Of a DNA stretch of 64,000 nucleotides, positions 2 through 8,440 are shown one piece after another (positions within the stretch are counted from its first letter, which is position 1; every line of letters starts with the position of its first letter). Position numbers and translations under genes: made by a program. The notes under the pieces are model-generated. The model searched no databases, was not told where the DNA came from, and was given only the letters and a program-made list of their open reading frames with translations. This stretch comes from Serratia nematodiphila DZ0503SBS1 (GTDB taxonomy: Bacteria > Pseudomonadota > Gammaproteobacteria > Enterobacterales > Enterobacteriaceae), in the NCBI RefSeq assembly GCF_000738675.1, contig NZ_JPUX01000002.1:496001-560000 (forward strand). The letters are read 5' to 3'.

Positions 2-3000
2 GCCTGGTGGGCCGAGCGCACCCGATTGTGCAACGGTTACGGGCCGACCGAGGCTTCCATTGCCACTTCGCTGTGCGAGTATCGTCCCGGCGTTCCCTGG
101 AACTGCATTGGCAAACCGCTGAAAAACTACCGTTGCCACATCCTTGATCTCCACCATAATCCACTGCCGGTCGGTTTTGAGGGCGAACTGTGCATCGCCG
201 GCAGCGGCCTGGCGCACGGTTACCTGCATCAAGAGGCGCTGAGCGCAGAGAAGTTCATTATCTGTCGGCTGCCGTATATGGCGGCCGAAGAGCGTCTTTA
301 TCGAACCGGCGACATCGCCAAATGGGACGAACAGGGCAACATTATTTTCGTCGGCCGCCGTGATCACCAGGTGAAGATACGCGGAGTGCGCATCGAGATG
401 GGAGAAGTGGAAAGCGCCGTCCGCAGTCATCCACTGGTTGAAAGCGCCTGCGTGGTCGCTCGCAGCCAGCCCTCGGGCAAAATTCTCGCCGCCTTCGTGC
501 AACCCGCTTCGCCTGAGCTGACGATCGACGCGCTGCGTCACGCGTTGGTCACACTGCTCCACCCCGCCGCGATCCCCAGCGTCTTTATTTTCTTGCCGGC
601 GCTGCCGCTGACCATCAATGGCAAGATCGCCCGCCAACAGTTGGAAAACTGGCCACTGGATGAGCGGAATGAGCGCCTGACGCCGCCGGAAACCGAAACG
701 GAGGCCATTCTCGAGCGCATCGTGGCCAACGCGATCGGCTGTCCGCAAGCCGACGTCACCCAGGAGTTCATCAACCTGGGCGCGCACTCGCTGACAATGA
801 GCAAAATCGTCGCGCTCGTCGCACGCGATCTTTGCTGCCACCTGAGCATCGCCGATCTGTTCCGCCACAATACGGTGCGCAAACTGGCCGAATATATCGA
901 GAATAAGGCCGTTGCCGCAGAGCGCGCCATCGCGATCTGCGACGAACGCCGCGCGCCGCTCAGCCCACAGCAGAACCTGCTTTGGTACCTGAGCGCATTG
1001 AATCCTGACGATTGCAGTTACAACCTGCCGCTGGCGATAGACATCCAGGGCCCGCTTGATCTGGGGCGCTTTGAGCAGGCGATCAATTTTATTTATGAAA
1101 AACATGAAAGCCTGCGCACTCGTTTCAGCGAAACCGACGGTGTCGCCTATCAGTTGGCAGAACCGCATACCCCGATTCGCCTTGCCGATCACTGGGTGGA
1201 CGGCCAAACGCTGTCGGCAGAAAAGTGGGTGCGCCAACTGTGTGCCACGCCTTTCGACATCACCGCTCGCCCGCCGCTGGTGCTTCGGCTGGTCCAGTAT
1301 CATCAGCAGCACCATGTTTTGATTTGGGTAAAACACAACATTATTACCGACGCCTGGAGCGAACAACTGATCCTTAACGATCTGTGGCAGCGCTATAACG
1401 AGCTTGACGATCACCACGGCTTGGACGCACCGCAACCGCAGATTCAAACTATCGACATCGTCAATAGCGGCATCGCGTCACCTGCGCCGGCGGATGTCGC
1501 TTATTGGCAACAGCAACTGCAAGACTGCCGCGAACTGGACTTCCCGCTGGATAAACCGCGCCCGCTGATGCCGACGCACGCCGGAGAGCGCATCCATTAT
1601 CAGCTGCAGCCTGACGTGGCCGGTCTGCTGGCGTCACGAGGCAAAGCGCTGGGCGCCACGCCTTTCGCCTTGCTCTGCGCGGCATTAAGTTTGCTGCTCA
1701 GCCGTTATACCCAGCAGCAGGATATCGTCATCGGCACCGCCATCGCAGCGCGGGATAACCTGGATCAGGCGCAGGTCAGCGGCTTCCACGTCAATACCGT
1801 ACCGCTGCGTATCCGACTGAGCGAACAGGACACTCTGGCCGGACTGATCGGTAACATGATGGAAACCTGCATCGGCGCCTACCAGCATCAGCAGCTCTCC
1901 TTCGACCGGATCTTGCACCAGATCGAATACGAACGGATGTCGAACAAAAATCCGTTATTCCAGATCATGGCTATCCTGCAGAACGCCGGTGACGTATGCC
2001 AACAAAACCTGCGCGATTGCACGCTGCATCGCTTGCCGCTTTCGTCCGGCTTCTCGATGTTCGATATGACCTGGAACTTCAGTGTGGAACAGGACGCCGT
2101 CGCCATCGAGCTCGATTACGCCAGCGAACTGTTTTATCCCGCCAGCATGCAAATGCTGTTGGACAACTATCAGCAAACGCTGCGGCAACTGCTCACCCTG
2201 CCGGCCAATACGGCGCAGCTTGCCCTCAACCCGCTATGCGAACGGGAACAACATTGGCTGCAACAGTTGGCCGTCAACGCCGACGCAGGTTCACGTGACT
2301 CGCTGCTGATGCACATTGGCCGGTTGGCGCATACTCAGCCTGACAGCCTCGCCGTCAGCTGCGAACGGCAACAGTACAGCTACCGTCAGCTGTGGGCGCA
2401 GTCTGAGCGCGTCGCGCATGCATTGCTGCGCATCGACAGCCGGCCTTTCTCGGTCGGCGTCATGATGGAGAAAAGTTGCCACGTCGCCGTGCTCCTGCTC
2501 GGCGTGCTGAGAGCCGGCAAACACTACGTGCCGATTGACGTACACTACCCGGCCGACCGCGTGAGCTACATGATCGAGAACGCGCAAGCCCGGTTGCTGG
2601 TGACCGATGGTGAGCCAGAGCAAGGTTGGGCCAGTCCCGCCGTCGGTTTCGACTCGCTGGTTTCTCATCCTGCAGCGGCCGACGCGTTGCCGATCCCAGC
2701 CGACGATACGCTGGCCTACATCATGTACACCTCAGGCTCAACCGGTAACCCCAAAGGGGTGATGATCACGCACGGCAACCTGAACAATTTCACCAACGAC
2801 TTCGTCGGACGGCTGGCGCTGAGCGCGCGCGATAAGGTGCTCAGCCTGACCAGCATCAGTTTCGATATTTTTGGGTTGGAACTTTTCTGCTCGCTCGCCG
2901 GCGGCGCGCACGTCACGCTGTGTCCACGAGAAACCGCCATGGATCCGGTCAAGCTGTATCACTTTATCGAGCGACAGCAGCCCAGCGTGATTCAAGCGAC

Positions 3001-4042
3001 ACCTACCGTCTGGAGTACCATCGCCCACCATCTGCCGGCGGCGAGCCAACGCCCCCTGACCGTGCTATGCGGCGGCGAGAAGATGCCGGCGGCCCTATTG
3101 ACGCAATTGCGACGCATCGCGACACGGGTGCTGCAGGTGTATGGCCCGACGGAAACCACCATCTGGTCGACCTGCGCCGATCTGACTCACGAAGGCGCAA
3201 GCGACTGTATCGGCACGCCGATCCAGAAGACTGAGGTTCTGGTCATGGATCAGGCCGGCAACCCGCTGCCAAGCGGCGCATTTGGTGAGCTGTGGCTGGG
3301 CGGCGCAGGGGTATCGCCGGGGTATTGGCGCAACCCGACGCTGAGCGATAAGGTCTTTCTACGGCGTCAGGCGTTCGGCGCCGAGCGCTATATGTACCGC
3401 ACCGGCGACATTGTGCGTTTTAATCGACAGGGGCAGCTGGAGTATCTCGGCCGGAACGATCACCAGGTCAAAATTCGCGGCCACCGTATTGAGTTGAGCG
3501 AAATCGATCTCAGTCTATCGTCCCTCGACAATATCGAGCGGTCACTCAGTTTAATTGTCGGTGAAGGCCAGCAGGCCCGCATCGTCAGCTACCTGCAGTT
3601 AACGCCGGGCGAAGAGCTGAATGAAAAAGCGGTACGCACGGCGCTGAAAGCCCGTTTGCCGAATATCATGATCCCGTCCGGTTTTGTGGTGCTGTCGGCC
3701 TTCCCGCTCACCAACAACAACAAAATCGACATTCGTCGGCTGCCAGCGCCGGAAACCCGCTACTCGGCTTCCGAAGCGGACTACACGCCTGCGGCCAACG
3801 AGGCGGAAAGCGCCATGCAGCATATCTGGCAACAAGTATTGTCGCAGACGCAGATCAGCGTCTGCGACAGCTTCTTCAGCCTGGGTGGAAATTCACTGCA
3901 GATCCCGCAGCTGCTGCACGCCATTCGTCAACAGATGGGCGTCTCGCTGACTATCCGCGAATTCATCATGCACAGCCAGATCCGCGAACTTACCGCTCTG
4001 GCCTTGAGCAAAACTGCCGAGGTCGCCGATGAAACGCATTGA
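2..4042 (+). CDS. Non-ribosomal peptide synthetase, 3' part (A-T-C-A-T), 5' end outside window
   Basis: The open frame runs in from the left edge; 1346 residues are visible and the true start lies upstream. Domains in order: end of a first adenylation domain, entering at core A5 (YGPTEAS near 45-70), with A7 YRTGD, A8 VKIRGVRIE and A10 NGK; a carrier domain with LGAHSL (Ser codon 788-790); a condensation domain at about 950-2270; a complete adenylation domain at about 2300-3760 (A3 YTSGSTGNPKG, A5 YGPTETT, A7 YRTGD, A10 NNNK); and a final carrier with LGGNSL (Ser codon 3893-3895). No thioesterase or reductase domain follows. Specificity residues of the second A domain read D-I-L-Q-L-G-V-I-W-K, close to the known glycine code. 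The condensation motif at 1334-1354 is HNIITDA instead of HHxxxDG. The stop overlaps the next gene by 14 bases. Confidence 0.96.
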   Translation, partial: AWWAERTRLCNGYGPTEASIATSLCEYRPGVPWNCIGKPLKNYRCHILDLHHNPLPVGFEGELCIAGSGLAHGYLHQEALSAEKFIICRLPYMAAEERLYRTGDIAKWDEQGNIIFVGRRDHQVKIRGVRIEMGEVESAVRSHPLVESACVVARSQPSGKILAAFVQPASPELTIDALRHALVTLLHPAAIPSVFIFLPALPLTINGKIARQQLENWPLDERNERLTPPETETEAILERIVANAIGCPQADVTQEFINLGAHSLTMSKIVALVARDLCCHLSIADLFRHNTVRKLAEYIENKAVAAERAIAICDERRAPLSPQQNLLWYLSALNPDDCSYNLPLAIDIQGPLDLGRFEQAINFIYEKHESLRTRFSETDGVAYQLAEPHTPIRLADHWVDGQTLSAEKWVRQLCATPFDITARPPLVLRLVQYHQQHHVLIWVKHNIITDAWSEQLILNDLWQRYNELDDHHGLDAPQPQIQTIDIVNSGIASPAPADVAYWQQQLQDCRELDFPLDKPRPLMPTHAGERIHYQLQPDVAGLLASRGKALGATPFALLCAALSLLLSRYTQQQDIVIGTAIAARDNLDQAQVSGFHVNTVPLRIRLSEQDTLAGLIGNMMETCIGAYQHQQLSFDRILHQIEYERMSNKNPLFQIMAILQNAGDVCQQNLRDCTLHRLPLSSGFSMFDMTWNFSVEQDAVAIELDYASELFYPASMQMLLDNYQQTLRQLLTLPANTAQLALNPLCEREQHWLQQLAVNADAGSRDSLLMHIGRLAHTQPDSLAVSCERQQYSYRQLWAQSERVAHALLRIDSRPFSVGVMMEKSCHVAVLLLGVLRAGKHYVPIDVHYPADRVSYMIENAQARLLVTDGEPEQGWASPAVGFDSLVSHPAAADALPIPADDTLAYIMYTSGSTGNPKGVMITHGNLNNFTNDFVGRLALSARDKVLSLTSISFDIFGLELFCSLAGGAHVTLCPRETAMDPVKLYHFIERQQPSVIQATPTVWSTIAHHLPAASQRPLTVLCGGEKMPAALLTQLRRIATRVLQVYGPTETTIWSTCADLTHEGASDCIGTPIQKTEVLVMDQAGNPLPSGAFGELWLGGAGVSPGYWRNPTLSDKVFLRRQAFGAERYMYRTGDIVRFNRQGQLEYLGRNDHQVKIRGHRIELSEIDLSLSSLDNIERSLSLIVGEGQQARIVSYLQLTPGEELNEKAVRTALKARLPNIMIPSGFVVLSAFPLTNNNKIDIRRLPAPETRYSASEADYTPAANEAESAMQHIWQQVLSQTQISVCDSFFSLGGNSLQIPQLLHAIRQQMGVSLTIREFIMHSQIRELTALALSKTAEVADETH

Positions 4043-4841
4043 GGTGTACCACCAAGGGCGTTGTCATCACCTTGACCACCGAGAGCCGCTGCGGCTCTCG
4101 GCCAGGCTGGACTTCGCCGATAACTCAACCAACCTTTATGGTGTGGCCCCCGCCGACTCGGCGCCGCTGAGTTACGGTGATACCGTCGCCAGCGTGCGTC
4201 ATGGCGGGGTCTGCAACGCCGAGCGCATCAGCCTGGTGCCGCACTGCCATGGTACGCACACCGAATGCATCGGCCATATTCTTCCTGAAACGCACAACGT
4301 GGCTGATTTGCCGCTTGAACCGTTCATCGCCGCCACCCTGATTCGCGTCAGGCCGCAGCGAGCGGACGCGACCGCGGAAAGCTATAACGCCAGCGCTGTC
4401 TGCGAAGACTGGCTGATTACCCGGGCGGCGCTCGATGACGCATTGGCGCCGTTGTCGGGCGACTACCTGCAGGCTTTGGTGATTGCGATCGAGGCGCCGA
4501 GCGAATTCCGCGCCGCGTCCTGCGCGCCCTACTTCAGCCATCAAGCCTTGGCGCGCATCGTCGAACTCGGCGTCCAGCATCTGTTGGTGGACATTCCGTC
4601 GATCGACCGACTATACGACGGCGGACGCATGGACAACCATCGCCGTTTTTGGGGGCTTGAGGCCCCCGACAGGCCGCAAGAAGGGCGCAAATACGCCTCC
4701 GTGACCGAGCTGATTCAGGTTCCCGCGCAGGCCACGGCGGGACACTATTTTCTGACCATTCAACTGCCGGATCTGAGCGGGGATGCCCTTCCCAGCCGGC
4801 CCATCTTATTTTCGTTTTCTACAGGGAAAGTGACATCATGA
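4029..4841 (+). CDS. Cyclase-family hydrolase, probable kynurenine formamidase
   Basis: 270 residues of the metal-dependent cyclase/KynB superfamily. The metal-binding signature HCHGTHTECIGH lies near residues 73-84. Family members hydrolyse N-formyl-L-kynurenine to L-kynurenine and formate. Because the very next gene is tryptophan 2,3-dioxygenase, that activity is the natural inference here. The start overlaps the NRPS stop by 14 bases and the stop overlaps the next start by 4 bases (ATGA), so translation is coupled along the operon. Its place inside a synthetase operon suggests it makes a precursor rather than serving general tryptophan catabolism. Other cyclase-family activities on different amides cannot be excluded from sequence alone. 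Confidence 0.87.
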   Translation: MKRIEVYHQGRCHHLDHREPLRLSARLDFADNSTNLYGVAPADSAPLSYGDTVASVRHGGVCNAERISLVPHCHGTHTECIGHILPETHNVADLPLEPFIAATLIRVRPQRADATAESYNASAVCEDWLITRAALDDALAPLSGDYLQALVIAIEAPSEFRAASCAPYFSHQALARIVELGVQHLLVDIPSIDRLYDGGRMDNHRRFWGLEAPDRPQEGRKYASVTELIQVPAQATAGHYFLTIQLPDLSGDALPSRPILFSFSTGKVTS

Positions 4842-5575
4842 ATTACGCCAGCTATCTGCAGCTAAACCAGCTGCTGTCGCTGCAACAGCCAGCCTCGCCG
4901 TCTGCGGAACACCGCAATGAAAACTTGTTTATCATCACTCATCAAACCTACGAGCTCTGGTTCAAGCAGCTGATCGATGAGCTTCATCTGGCGATCGCGC
5001 AGATCGAAGAAGGAGATATACCGGCGGCGATCGAAACGATGACGCGCGTCAATGCCATTACCCAAACCGTGGTGAATCAGATCGCCGTGATTTGCACGCT
5101 GAAGTTTCACGAATTCCAGCGTTTTCGCAGCTATCTCGGCACCGCCAGCGGTTTTCAATCCTACCAGTTCGCCGGCATAGAAGCGCTGCTCGGCAAGGAA
5201 AATCCGAAAAAACTACAGCAGTATCAGGGTGATGAAGAGGCACAGCGCCGATTGGCGGCTATCATCCAACCGGTTTCACTATGGCAGGCAATACGCGGCC
5301 ATTTGATGCGTCTCAATGACCAGCCCAATCAGGCGGCGCGGGGCTTCGACGACATCATCAGGCAATCGCTGACGCGTTCGAGCTGCGAGTCGCTGCTGCT
5401 CAATCAACTGCTGGATTTGGATTCACTGCTGCAGGAGTGGCGTTACCGCCATGTGAAACTGGTGGAACGTACTATCGGGCAGCGGAAAGGTACCGGCGGT
5501 TCATCGGGTTCGGACTATCTGAAATCTACGCTGTTCACGCCGATCTTCGATGAATTGTGGAACGCCATCAACTGA
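4838..5575 (+). CDS. Tryptophan 2,3-dioxygenase
   Basis: 245 residues. The haem enzyme opens the indole ring of L-Trp with O2 to give N-formylkynurenine. Family hallmarks are all present: FIITHQTYELWFKQL near residue 32, FRSYLGTASGFQSYQF near 96, and the C-terminal YRHVKLVERTIG with the axial haem His, followed by GTGGSSGSDYLKST. It is somewhat shorter than the usual 270-280 residues but has both ends of the fold. The ATG overlaps the stop of the formamidase gene (ATGA). Known antibiotic clusters such as daptomycin and actinomycin carry dedicated copies of this enzyme to supply kynurenine or its derivatives; the same role is inferred here. No kynureninase gene is visible in the window. Confidence 0.94.
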   Translation: MNYASYLQLNQLLSLQQPASPSAEHRNENLFIITHQTYELWFKQLIDELHLAIAQIEEGDIPAAIETMTRVNAITQTVVNQIAVICTLKFHEFQRFRSYLGTASGFQSYQFAGIEALLGKENPKKLQQYQGDEEAQRRLAAIIQPVSLWQAIRGHLMRLNDQPNQAARGFDDIIRQSLTRSSCESLLLNQLLDLDSLLQEWRYRHVKLVERTIGQRKGTGGSSGSDYLKSTLFTPIFDELWNAIN

Positions 5576-5590
5576 ATGCGTTCCTTAACG

Positions 5591-5614
5591 CCAAGGAAGC
5601 TCAGGCTTCCTTGG
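5591..5614 (+). repeat. Perfect 10-bp inverted repeat between dioxygenase and thioesterase genes
   Basis: Two perfect 10-base arms, CCAAGGAAGC and GCTTCCTTGG, flank a TCAG loop. No T-run follows on the plus strand, so it is not a classical terminator. It lies 16 bases after the dioxygenase stop and 24 bases before the likely thioesterase start. It may act as an mRNA-stability or partial attenuation element that lowers expression of the last gene. Confidence 0.6.
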
Positions 5615-5638
5615 CCTCCTGAAAATACGGATTTCGCC

Positions 5639-6406
5639 ATGCATTGCACCCACTTCCCCAACGCCCCACGCAGCTTGAAACCGCTGACGCCAGGGCGCCA
5701 GGGCAGCCTGCGGCTGATCGCTTTTCCTCATGCCGGCGCCGGCGCCACTGCCTTTCAGGGGTGGAGCCCCTCGTTGCATCAGGACATCGAACTCTATGCC
5801 GTGCAATACCCCGGTCGAGAGGAGCGGGCAAACGAAGCGCCGCTCTGTCACCCCCAATCACTCATCAATCAACTGATGCCGGCACTGCAGCCACTGCAGG
5901 ACAAACCGCTGATCTTTTTCGGCCACAGTCTTGGCGGACGGGTTGCGCTGGCGTTAGCGACAGCGCTGCCTCAGCCGCCGCTGCAGTTGATCATTTCCGC
6001 CAGTTCATCGCCCTTCCTGGCGCGCCACAGTGCGTTGCTGAGAATGCCGCGTGCCGCTTTGTTGAACGCGCTATGTGCCGGCGAGGGTCTGGATGCGTCG
6101 CTCATCGGCGACAGCGCGCTGCTCGATTACTATCTGCCGCTGATCCGTGCCGATCTGATGCTGTCCAGCCAATTGCTTTTTCCTGAGCAGCCGGGTTACC
6201 CCGCCCCGCTGGCGATGTTTTATGGTGAAAACGACGAGCTGATCGATCGGCAGGATTTGCTCGACTGGCGCCGGATCGCGCAAGGCGATTTTCAGCAGCG
6301 CACTTTTGCCGGCGGACATATGTATATCACCACGCAGCGCGACGCCGTGATAGCCGGCATTCACCAGTTGCTGGCAGGCCACCTGAGTGAACCAGCCAGC
6401 ATATAG
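5639..6406 (+). CDS. Type II thioesterase (alpha/beta hydrolase)
   Basis: 255 residues from the chosen ATG at 5639. An upstream in-frame ATG at 5576 abuts the dioxygenase stop but would add 21 residues spanning a hairpin, so it is less likely; neither start has a good Shine-Dalgarno site. The N-terminal strand carries FPHAGAGA, the nucleophile elbow is GHSLGG near residue 98, and FAGGHMYI near the C-terminus supplies the catalytic His. These stand-alone enzymes remove wrong or stalled acyl groups from carrier domains. Because the neighbouring synthetase ends in a carrier domain without its own thioesterase, this protein could also take part in product release; that is inference. Confidence 0.9.
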   Translation: MHCTHFPNAPRSLKPLTPGRQGSLRLIAFPHAGAGATAFQGWSPSLHQDIELYAVQYPGREERANEAPLCHPQSLINQLMPALQPLQDKPLIFFGHSLGGRVALALATALPQPPLQLIISASSSPFLARHSALLRMPRAALLNALCAGEGLDASLIGDSALLDYYLPLIRADLMLSSQLLFPEQPGYPAPLAMFYGENDELIDRQDLLDWRRIAQGDFQQRTFAGGHMYITTQRDAVIAGIHQLLAGHLSEPASI

Positions 6407-6409
6407 CCG

Positions 6410-7573
6410 TCAGGCGTTTTCACTCTCAGGCATCGCCAGACGACGCTCGTTGTGCACCACCCGCCACGCCAACAGCAGCACGCAGAGGCTGCAGAGCGAC
6501 AGCACGGCGCCCAGGTGCTGCGAAAGCCCCGCCAACACCAAGCCACCGCCGAGCATCAGGTAATACATCAGGCCAAGGATGGCGCCGGCGGTGCCCATGC
6601 AGTCTTTATAATGGCGCAGCGCGCGCGCCAGAATATTGGGAATGGCGATGCCGTACGCCATCACCACCAGCATCATCGGCAGAACGAACCACAAGCTCCC
6701 TTCCAGCAGCAGTACCAGCAGGCCGCCGATCAGCGATAATCCGCAGGCCAGCATCAACAGTGCGGGGAACAACCAGTGCTTACCGATCAAAAACTTGTTG
6801 ATCGCCGCGCCGATGCCCACCCCGGCCGCCAACACCAAACCGGTATAACCGAACCACTGCGCCGGCAGCGCCAACGCCGAGAAGTGGAATGGCGCCAGCT
6901 GGTAATAGCTGAACATGCAAATATTGAACAACGCCACCAACAGCGCGCTGAGCCAAATATCCCCGTCCTTGACCATCCGTCCCAGCGTGCCGAAAAATGA
7001 ATTCTTCACCACCTGTTGCGGACGCGTCTCCGGCAGTTGCCAACCGGCATAGCCCAGCAACAGCGCCGCCAACAGCGCCAAACCGCCGAACACCCCCTGA
7101 TAGCCCCAATAGTGAGTCAGCACTGCGCCGCTCAACACGCCAACCGCCGGGCTGATCGCCATGGCGATCCCCATCACCGAGAACACCCGCGCCAATTCAT
7201 AACCGTCGAAGCGATCGCGAATCGCCGTTTGCGTCCCGACCGAACCGACCGCCGCGCCAAAGGCGGCCAGCACCCGCGCGGCCAGCAGCACGCTGAAGCT
7301 GCCGCTGAACAGCGCAACGAGAGAAGCCAGCAGATAGAGCGTCAGCCCGGCCAAAATGGTGGGACGGCGTCCGATGACGTCGCACATCCGCCCCCATACC
7401 ACCACGCCCAGCGCAAAGGCGAAAAAGTAGCAAGAGAGCGTTTGCGCCGCCATCTCCGCACTGACCCGGAAACCGTGCGCAATATGCGTCAATGCCGGGC
7501 TATAGATGGTCTCCACCACCTGGGGAAACATCATCATCGACGTCGCCAACGTCAGCGTCAGTTTACGTTGCAT
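6410..7573 (-). CDS. MFS drug-resistance transporter, Bcr/CflA type
   Basis: 387 residues with twelve predicted membrane segments and the loop-2/3 signature GRMCDVIGRRPTILAG of proton-coupled drug exporters. The start ATG at 7573 is preceded by AGGA at good spacing; a longer frame reaching 7624 lacks such a site. The stop is only 3 bases from the thioesterase stop, so the two genes converge. It is transcribed divergently from an AraC-type regulator. Position beside a peptide synthetase operon suggests it exports the product or provides self-resistance, but the subfamily also contains general exporters, so the substrate is unknown. Confidence 0.88.
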   Translation of the reverse strand: MQRKLTLTLATSMMMFPQVVETIYSPALTHIAHGFRVSAEMAAQTLSCYFFAFALGVVVWGRMCDVIGRRPTILAGLTLYLLASLVALFSGSFSVLLAARVLAAFGAAVGSVGTQTAIRDRFDGYELARVFSVMGIAMAISPAVGVLSGAVLTHYWGYQGVFGGLALLAALLLGYAGWQLPETRPQQVVKNSFFGTLGRMVKDGDIWLSALLVALFNICMFSYYQLAPFHFSALALPAQWFGYTGLVLAAGVGIGAAINKFLIGKHWLFPALLMLACGLSLIGGLLVLLLEGSLWFVLPMMLVVMAYGIAIPNILARALRHYKDCMGTAGAILGLMYYLMLGGGLVLAGLSQHLGAVLSLCSLCVLLLAWRVVHNERRLAMPESENA

Positions 7574-7672
7574 AACAGATCCTGTAGCCAAGAATAGGCT
7601 GCACAAGGTAGCATCTGGTCCCATCGCCGATTACAATATAAAAGACAATAAATTTACAAAATCGGACAGACT

Positions 7673-8440
7673 ATGGCGTGGCTTCAGGCGCAGGACAGTT
7701 TTAATCCGGATACGCTCGACAACGAGGTGCTCGGGATCGCAGCCGAACTGGCGCAGCACGACTCGGGCACGCATTGGCATGACAGGGGGCAGTTGCTGTT
7801 CTGTCAGCAAGGCAGCATGCGCATCACGCTCAACCAAAGCATCTGTATGCTGCCGCCGGGCAGAGTCGCCTGGATCCCGCCGCAGGTGGCTCACCGCGTT
7901 CAGGTCAACGGCGTCGTCGGCTACCGTTCGCTTTATCTCGACGCCGATCGCTATGCCTGTCTGCCTGCGCAGCTTGCCGTACTGACAGCCTCGCCGCTGC
8001 TGCGCGAGGTGTTGGAACGCATCGCGTTCGCCGCCTTCGACACCGACTGGCAGCATGGGCCTTACGCCAATATTCTGGCGGTCTGCCTGGACGAGATCGC
8101 CGCCGCGCCGCGCGAACTGACGCTGCTGCCGCTGCCCAGCGACCGCCGCCTGCGCCATCTGGCCAATCTGGACATGCTTCCGCCGCTGCACGAGCTATCG
8201 CGCTATAGCGGCGCTTCCGAGAAAACCATCAGCCGGATTTTCCGCCGTGAAACCGGGCTCGGTTATCAACAATGGCGTCAGCAATGGCGCCTGATCAAAG
8301 CGATAGAGATGCTGGCCGCAGGGCTGAGCCAATCCGACGTCGCCGGTCGGCTGGCGTTTTCCAGCGACAGCGCCTTCGCCACTTTTTTCAAGAATATGGC
8401 GGGCTGCCCGCCGAGGGCGTATATGGAGAGAAGAAAGTAA
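7673..8440 (+). CDS. AraC-family regulator with N-terminal cupin (NimR-like)
   Basis: 255 residues. The N-terminal half contains a cupin-like ligand pocket (HDSGTHWHDRGQLLFCQQG, then LPPGRVAWIPP), and the C-terminal 100 residues hold the double helix-turn-helix (LHELSRYSGASEKTISRIFRRE; SQSDVAGRLAFSSDSAFATFFK). This arrangement is that of NimR/YeaM, which controls a divergent MFS exporter gene. The same divergent layout with the transporter gene, separated by 99 bases, suggests this protein controls that exporter in response to a small molecule. Whether it also controls the synthetase operon cannot be told from this window. Confidence 0.87.
   Translation: MAWLQAQDSFNPDTLDNEVLGIAAELAQHDSGTHWHDRGQLLFCQQGSMRITLNQSICMLPPGRVAWIPPQVAHRVQVNGVVGYRSLYLDADRYACLPAQLAVLTASPLLREVLERIAFAAFDTDWQHGPYANILAVCLDEIAAAPRELTLLPLPSDRRLRHLANLDMLPPLHELSRYSGASEKTISRIFRRETGLGYQQWRQQWRLIKAIEMLAAGLSQSDVAGRLAFSSDSAFATFFKNMAGCPPRAYMERRK

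Follow-up and report, generated by a model that had tools for sequence, protein, structure and literature searches.

Gene content and conservation of the cluster

The stretch of DNA analyzed here, which we call the window, comprises 64,000 nucleotides of the two-contig genome of Serratia nematodiphila DZ0503SBS1 (C2:496001-560000), and its left edge cuts through a biosynthetic gene cluster built around a nonribosomal peptide synthetase (NRPS) whose 5' end lies outside the window. A first-pass annotation had described an NRPS of layout A-T-C-A-T (A, adenylation; T, thiolation or carrier; C, condensation) with its 5' part cut off, followed in the same direction by a KynB-like cyclase, a tryptophan 2,3-dioxygenase (TDO), and a type II thioesterase, and had proposed extending the sequence to the left. 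Fetching the missing 5' part from the left flank recovered a ferredoxin gene, an AurF-type N-oxygenase gene, and the start of the NRPS gene. With a major facilitator superfamily (MFS) exporter and an AraC-family regulator, the unit comprises eight genes, in this order:

C2:493032-493316, left of the window: [2Fe-2S] ferredoxin, 94 aa (Pfam PF00111)
C2:493330-494265, left of the window: AurF-family diiron N-oxygenase, 311 aa (Pfam PF11583)
ATG at C2:494334, residues 557-1902 at window positions 2..4042, + strand: NRPS, 1902 aa at full length (Pfam, open reading frame)
4029..4841, + strand: cyclase (Pfam PF04199) from a clade outside KynB, probably an N-formylkynurenine formamidase
4838..5575, + strand: TDO of a cluster-specific subfamily (Pfam PF03301, E 5.5e-49)
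5576..6406, + strand: type II thioesterase (Pfam PF00975, open reading frame)
6410..7624, alternative start 7573, - strand: Bcr/CflA-type MFS exporter (Pfam, conserved with the cluster)
7673..8440, + strand: AraC-family regulator with a cupin sensor domain (Pfam, conserved with the cluster)

The first-pass domain string was borne out by Pfam, which placed two AMP-binding and two PP-binding stretches and a single Condensation domain in the window's part of the NRPS, and the thioesterase and the shared gene direction were confirmed in the same way. The NRPS and cyclase genes overlap by 14 bases and the cyclase and TDO genes by 4 bases, as had been noticed; the thioesterase open reading frame begins one base past the TDO stop codon, but translation may in fact start at an in-frame ATG near position 5639. 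The exporter scored 186.2 bits against TIGR00710, slightly below the cut-off of 200.9. A promoter-like TTGACA-17-TATCGT (L004:6902-6930) ends about 100 bases 5' of the ferredoxin gene, in a region with 6 promoter-like sites compared with 2.0 (standard deviation, 1.6) in shuffled sequences. The G+C content of the six operon genes is 58%, that of the left and right flanks 66% and 62%, and that of the stretch 5' of the ferredoxin gene 32%.

All eight genes were found in six genomes, namely the source genome (G000), G021, G029, G045, G051, and Photorhabdus bodei, where they lie on two contigs. Recurrence in five further genomes implies that the arrangement is more than chance. Comparison with G045 gave ratios of nonsynonymous to synonymous substitution (dN/dS) ranging from 0.045 for the pump to 0.235 for the cyclase across the eight genes, indicating purifying selection; comparisons with G051 and P. 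bodei, 12 of 13 of which had a saturated dS, were dropped. The cluster is real, conserved, and coherent, and is a new combination of known parts. Its chemistry is set by the N-oxygenase, which the first-pass annotation had not foreseen, any more than it had the ferredoxin at the operon start, the glycine-type second A domain (A2), or the altered C-domain motif described below.

The putative tryptophan-to-kynurenine pair

The features on which the reading of the two tryptophan-related enzymes depends are as follows:

4242..4277, + strand: cyclase motif HCHGTHTECIGH (alignment, 32 rows)
5171..5173, + strand: TDO Ala112, at the site of the generic down-propionate Arg (xcTDO R132, human R159; alignment)
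5450..5452, + strand: TDO proximal heme ligand His205 (xcTDO H240; alignment)

The identification of the TDO held, with 167.8 bits against PF03301 (gathering score, 34.9), and the enzyme is divergent, scoring only 199.2 bits against the equivalog model TIGR03036 (cut-off, 390.7). It belongs to a separate subfamily, within which identities run from 99% down to 53% (P0015, with the partial sequences P0016 and P0018 set aside) before dropping to at most about 46% among the 120 matches listed. In an alignment of 25 rows (16 from the subfamily and 9 generic; P0016 lacks its N terminus), F51, H55 (the distal His), R117, S124, H240, and the three GTGG glycines are identical wherever letters exist, and position 254 holds T or S. 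The idea that the carboxylate-binding Arg (R117) had been lost was rejected, since counting positions showed that R117 is kept and R132 is the residue that changed: at the latter position, 11 of the 16 subfamily rows have A and the other 5 have D, and all 9 generic rows have R. A near-identical Rahnella database protein (P0009) has Asp rather than Ala at position 112.

Human R159, which we equated with xcTDO R132 by counting from R117/R144, is reported to contact the heme down-propionate, and the R159A variant is said to resemble the wild type in N-formylkynurenine formation from L-Trp but, with indolepropionate, to raise the yield of mono-oxygenated product ~3.7-fold (PMC12312684). Together with these data, the kept pocket speaks for ordinary tryptophan dioxygenation in a changed heme setting. 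The GTGGS loop likewise points to normal dioxygenation, because it is kept here, unlike in MarE, a TDO relative in secondary metabolism whose loop is given as SLGGR in the same source (PMC12312684). A second, ordinary TDO with the usual Arg is encoded elsewhere in the source genome (L006, G000:C1:2962792-2963556), so that the cluster copy looks dedicated to the cluster. In that genome, no kynureninase reached the cut-off and nothing matched the KynB model, although the KynB search was insensitive here and missed the window's cyclase as well.

The label "KynB-like" fared less well: the cyclase matches PF04199 and scores only 20.3 bits against the KynB model TIGR03035 (cut-off, 223.05). Where KynB has what we take to be its canonical metal motif, HxGTHxDxPxH, the window's cyclase has HCHGTHTECIGH, which departs from it; the H, C, G, T, H, T, E, G, and H of this motif are invariant in the 32 aligned rows, and even distant kin (35 to 43% identity) have HCxGTHTExxGH. 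The predicted structure has a mean pLDDT (predicted local distance difference test) of 81.6. Close kin of the cyclase occur in the organisms that also contribute to the TDO subfamily (Serratia, Photorhabdus, Rahnella, Pseudomonas syringae, and Enterobacteriaceae BIT-l23), with Pectobacterium in the cyclase list only, and three contig sizes (3225, 9013, and 5286228) are common to the two lists. A general partnership of the cyclase clade with TDOs was rejected after a search of 78 generic TDO loci, none of which had it within the fetched flanks, and of 41 TDO-bearing genomes chosen from them, one of which did. In that genome, Microbulbifer sediminum, the cyclase gene lies between genes for 3-hydroxyanthranilate dioxygenase (HAAO; 238.8 bits, cut-off 220) and kynureninase (484.8 bits, cut-off 246.4). 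The enzyme is probably an N-formylkynurenine formamidase of a non-KynB clade.

In Rahnella perminowiae (L008:190-4408), the cyclase and TDO genes stand behind genes for a short-chain dehydrogenase/reductase (SDR) and a pyridoxal phosphate (PLP)-dependent decarboxylase, which might turn kynurenine into kynuramine. No AurF match was found genome-wide in this organism, and the 14.4 kb at the locus contained no match to an NRPS, NRPSs not having been searched across the genome; the subfamily TDO occurs in 1 of 14 genomes of the genus Rahnella. Because the two genes occur together there without an N-oxygenase, they seem to form a portable tryptophan-to-kynurenine pair, which in turn favors chemistry on the free substrates. 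The earlier claim of an NRPS operon with what looks like its own tryptophan-to-kynurenine genes thus gains from the retained TDO residues and the Microbulbifer relative. An upstream kynureninase or kynurenine monooxygenase (KMO), which had also been suggested, is absent from the cluster by Pfam annotation of its genes. Genome-wide, the best kynureninase match scored 18.7 bits (cut-off, 246.4), suggesting that kynurenine would not be drained to anthranilate by a canonical enzyme; KMO was not searched genome-wide.

The N-oxygenase, the NRPS, and the predicted product

The N-oxygenase scored 63.3 bits against PF11583 (threshold, 29.6) and shares with its aligned relatives a Glu/His pattern that we take to provide the diiron ligands, one Glu being off by one residue relative to AurF in a pairwise alignment. 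By BLAST, it scored 184 bits against proteins of Megaera and Fischerella, 163 bits against a Burkholderia HamC-like protein, and 130 bits against an Alb2-like protein; AurF itself gave 38.8 bits by phmmer, a different program, so that the comparison is rough. HamC is described as oxidizing valine tethered to the NRPS HamD in fragin biosynthesis, the residue loaded on the HamD-type NRPS being the one that is N-oxidized (PMC11659414). For Alb2, the account in PMC3445576 has the authors proposing conversion of an amino group to an oxime, with the timing unclear, and it gives AurF as the enzyme that converts 4-aminobenzoate to 4-nitrobenzoate. By analogy with the first two systems, the present N-oxygenase would oxidize the amino group of an amino acid held on a carrier domain.

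The NRPS has an unassigned N-terminal domain followed by A1-T-C-A2-T, without a thioesterase domain, and the following parts fall within the window:

404..625, + strand: C-terminal subdomain of A1 (Pfam PF13193)
788..790, + strand: phosphopantetheine-bearing serine of T1, in LGAHSL (motif)
947..2212, + strand: C domain (Pfam PF00668)
1334..1354, + strand: C-domain motif HNIITDA, replacing HHxxxDG
2327..3328, + strand: A2 domain (Pfam, code)
3818..4000, + strand: T2 carrier domain (Pfam)

The A1 code, D-A-W-T-I-M-G-I as extracted by script and A at the next position by hand, is of the aromatic type, and the substrate of A1 is probably kynurenine or a similar aromatic residue. The first-pass proposal of a product containing kynurenine, N-formylkynurenine, or a derivative is therefore probable as to its kynurenine-type character, and the residue loaded by A1 may be kynurenine, N-formylkynurenine, or another aromatic one. 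The A2 code, D-I-L-Q-L-G-V-I-W, is one that we take to specify glycine. Both codes are identical in the six orthologous NRPSs compared (those of the source genome, G051, and Photorhabdus, and P0121-P0123), all of which also have HNI(I/L)TDA in the C domain, with the second, catalytic His of HHxxxDG lost.

The first 290 residues of the NRPS matched no Pfam family. A formyltransferase, suggested by eye, was rejected for lack of a PF00551 match at E 10 and of a significant hhalign result, the first of these negatives being limited by HMMER filters that drop most weak matches. Seven NRPSs that lie beside AurF-like genes (those of the present cluster, G051, a further locus in P. bodei, the althiomycin-type locus, Burkholderia cenocepacia, "Candidatus Megaera," and Fischerella, with 3 of 7 plasmid records examined) all have an alike stretch before A1 that starts with M..(L/I).I, with GH.(V/I) near residue 27 in six of them (AHSV in G051) and then LSR in four, and these stretches are likely homologous. 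The "Ca. Megaera polyxenophila" genes lie on plasmid pPCS109 (L131:8188-17361), which carries the AurF-like oxygenase, a thioesterase (annotated as oleoyl-ACP hydrolase), a multidrug and toxic compound extrusion (MATE) pump, and the NRPS; the latter's second A domain reads DILQ.GVIW (glycine) and its C domain HNIITDG, with HN for HH. The second P. bodei AurF-like gene (L129:3668-9120) encodes a protein that shares 68% of its residues with the Alb2-like protein of G001 and stands beside a gene for a 1424-aa NRPS.

The prediction that follows starts from what can be read in the sequence, namely the cluster's anatomy and conservation, the kept TDO residues, the AurF-type diiron pattern, and the glycine-type A2 code. 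The TDO would convert L-Trp to N-formylkynurenine, and the cyclase would hydrolyze this to L-kynurenine, which, or a close aromatic relative of which, A1 would load on T1. The N-oxygenase, with electrons from the ferredoxin, would then oxidize the α-amine of this carrier-bound first residue, as HamC does and as is proposed for Alb2; glycine on T2 would be joined to the N-oxidized residue by the HNxxxDA C domain; and the separate thioesterase would release or edit the product, with the Bcr/CflA pump exporting it and the AraC protein regulating the genes. Since A2 is of the glycine type, A1 is aromatic, and the N-oxygenase resembles enzymes of the fragin and althiomycin systems that work on α-amines, we infer that the product may be an α-N-oxygenated kynurenyl-glycine. 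We put the chances that this is a small N-oxygenated kynurenine-peptide cluster at about even. β-Keto oximes close to isoxazoles, and in a kynurenine α-oxime the N-OH would lie two carbons from the TDO-made aryl ketone, so that ring closure could give 5-(2-aminophenyl)isoxazole-3-carbonyl-glycine. This closure, which we infer from chemistry rather than sequence, is unlikely in itself, although it would explain why the tryptophan-to-kynurenine pair and the N-oxygenase occur together in all six genomes with this NRPS.

Several observations weigh against the reading as an N-oxygenated kynurenine-peptide cluster. The window's cyclase has no PDB sequence match, and its clade was found in only 1 of the 41 TDO-bearing genomes (that of M. 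sediminum, whose member matches no NCBIfam family) and in 0 of the 78 generic TDO loci within the fetched flanks (E 1e-4). The Rahnella contig starts 189 bases before the SDR gene, and an NRPS gene further upstream is possible. The A1 code, against others' codes as we take them to be, fits kynurenine and Phe/Tyr about equally; the HNxxxDA C domain may not catalyze condensation; and the N-terminal likeness among the NRPSs is weak (hhalign E 0.052-0.067 with single sequences), Alb4 having aligned at another place.

AurF itself acts on an aryl amine, and kynurenine carries one. The N-oxygenase, as a PF11583 enzyme, might thus oxidize the aniline of kynurenine, in the manner of AurF making 4-nitrobenzoate from 4-aminobenzoate (PMC3445576), to give a hydroxylamino- or nitro-aryl kynurenine and possibly an anthranil (2,1-benzisoxazole). 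We consider this rather unlikely, given that by the scores above the enzyme is nearer to HamC-like and Alb2-like proteins than to AurF, roughly compared, and that its NRPS has the N-terminal stretch seen in the HamC and Alb2 systems. It is more doubtful that the two enzymes of the pair use a different substrate (for instance, carrier-bound or modified Trp) or make a different product (for instance, an oxindole by mono-oxygenation), the cyclase being no formamidase. Replacement of the down-propionate Arg in all 16 subfamily rows, the increased mono-oxygenation of indolepropionate by R159A (PMC12312684), the cyclase's failure to match the KynB model and metal motif, and the clade's rarity among TDO genomes are consistent with such a role, but R117 and the GTGGS loop (SLGGR in MarE) are kept, R159A is reported to form N-formylkynurenine from L-Trp like the wild type (PMC12312684), and a relative of the cyclase lies within a kynurenine-pathway gene group. 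Release of a kynurenine-containing dipeptide by cyclization to a diketopiperazine, for instance cyclo(Kyn-Gly) or its N-hydroxy form, is equally doubtful. N-hydroxylated dipeptides can leave in this way, and the glycine-type A2 and missing terminal thioesterase would suit it, but the separate thioesterase is kept in all six cluster-bearing genomes.

Distribution, related systems, and significance

The cluster TDO copy (at least 99% identity) was found in 3 of 30 genomes of the genus, the source genome included; 26 of the 30 have some TDO match, the other 23 being ordinary TDOs at 37 to 39% identity. An AurF search of the same 30 genomes returned the same three and, in G001, a further copy (27% identity) that sits in an althiomycin-type locus. 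At the family level, 3 of 295 genomes matched at 1e-60 (the source genome, G045, and G051, the latter two with other genus labels). G051 has the pump and regulator genes to the left of the operon rather than to the right, and integrase- or transposase-like open reading frames were seen by eye near the G051 and P. bodei copies; from these signs, the unit is probably mobile. The G051 TDO gene (L120:12357-13091) is a full-length open frame with no ATG, GTG, or TTG near the expected start, where an ATT may serve. Only four protein clusters in a large protein database matched the NRPS N terminus, one of 667 member sequences (S. marcescens) and one of 179 (S. quinivorans). P. syringae has subfamily TDOs (P0011 and P0013) and cyclases (P0141 and P0145), but its gene context was not observed, since none of 298 genomes, probably Pseudomonadaceae as judged from a single 16S match, matched at 1e-75.

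Spread on plasmids was rejected, the cyclase having no match in 72,556 plasmid records and the TDO matching only below 60% identity (99 records), as was spread in Escherichia coli, the cluster DNA having no match in 20,395 E. coli records searched in near mode only. Two further class-level matches proved to be generic TDOs (41 to 42% identity) with neighbors that looked kynureninase-like by eye. Within the genus, G005 has a TDO-like fragment (L123:7583-9574; 29% identity over residues 92-152) beside a gene that appeared by eye to encode a flavin adenine dinucleotide (FAD) monooxygenase. To the left of the present cluster and of a copper-ATPase-like gene lies what is presumably a prodigiosin-like (pig) cluster (C2:470001-486200; L005), named by eye from its proteins, which would place two secondary-metabolite clusters within ~35 kb.

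The fragin/valdiazen ham genes of B. cenocepacia and the pvf/mgo genes share with the present cluster a diiron N-oxygenase gene directly before the NRPS gene, a similar stretch at the NRPS N terminus, and an A-T unit. The B. cenocepacia locus L130 was assigned to ham on the strength of its N-oxygenase and of an NRPS that carries a thioester reductase, the record being unannotated there and the NRPS start lying in two frames. In ham, too, a carrier-bound amino acid is N-oxidized, but as described there valine is loaded, a reductase domain stands at the end, and a heme-containing oxygenase, HamA, is present (PMC11659414); the present cluster has instead kynurenine genes, a second module (Gly), and a ferredoxin, and lacks the reductase. 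The althiomycin (alb) cluster of S. marcescens Db10 is described as having an MFS exporter, an N-oxygenase, an NRPS, and a type II thioesterase (PMC3445576), and L137, which we took as alb from its gene order and an NRPS of 2376 aa, the length given for Alb4 (PMC3445576), has an alike NRPS start. It differs in loading Gly first, in its thiazole and polyketide synthase steps, in its methyltransferase, and in its lack of Trp genes, and its Alb2-like protein and the present N-oxygenase share 27% identity. With two A domains (aromatic and Gly) and no methyltransferase, the present cluster is not of the althiomycin type, which has a Gly-Cys-Ser-Cys-Gly NRPS-polyketide synthase and a methyltransferase.

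Dedicated TDO genes beside NRPS genes are also a feature of the daptomycin, actinomycin, and pyrrolobenzodiazepine clusters, the last two of which use kynureninase, which the present cluster lacks, and SfmD and PrnB are TDO- or indoleamine 2,3-dioxygenase (IDO)-like enzymes repurposed in secondary metabolism. We know of no N-oxygenase with the NRPS in the daptomycin, actinomycin, or pyrrolobenzodiazepine systems. Our literature searches, whose coverage excluded most subscription journals, found no description of the cluster, and a published product is possible.

Taken together, these results partly support the first-pass interpretation. The cluster would join a dedicated kynurenine supply to amino acid N-oxygenation on an NRPS, a pairing that was not found in those searches, and resembles N-oxygenase systems that range from Burkholderia to a plasmid of a Rickettsiales endosymbiont. 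Its cyclase may represent a formamidase clade distinct from KynB, its TDO belongs to a subfamily in which a heme-propionate contact is naturally altered, and the cluster as a whole gives rise to a specific, testable product prediction.

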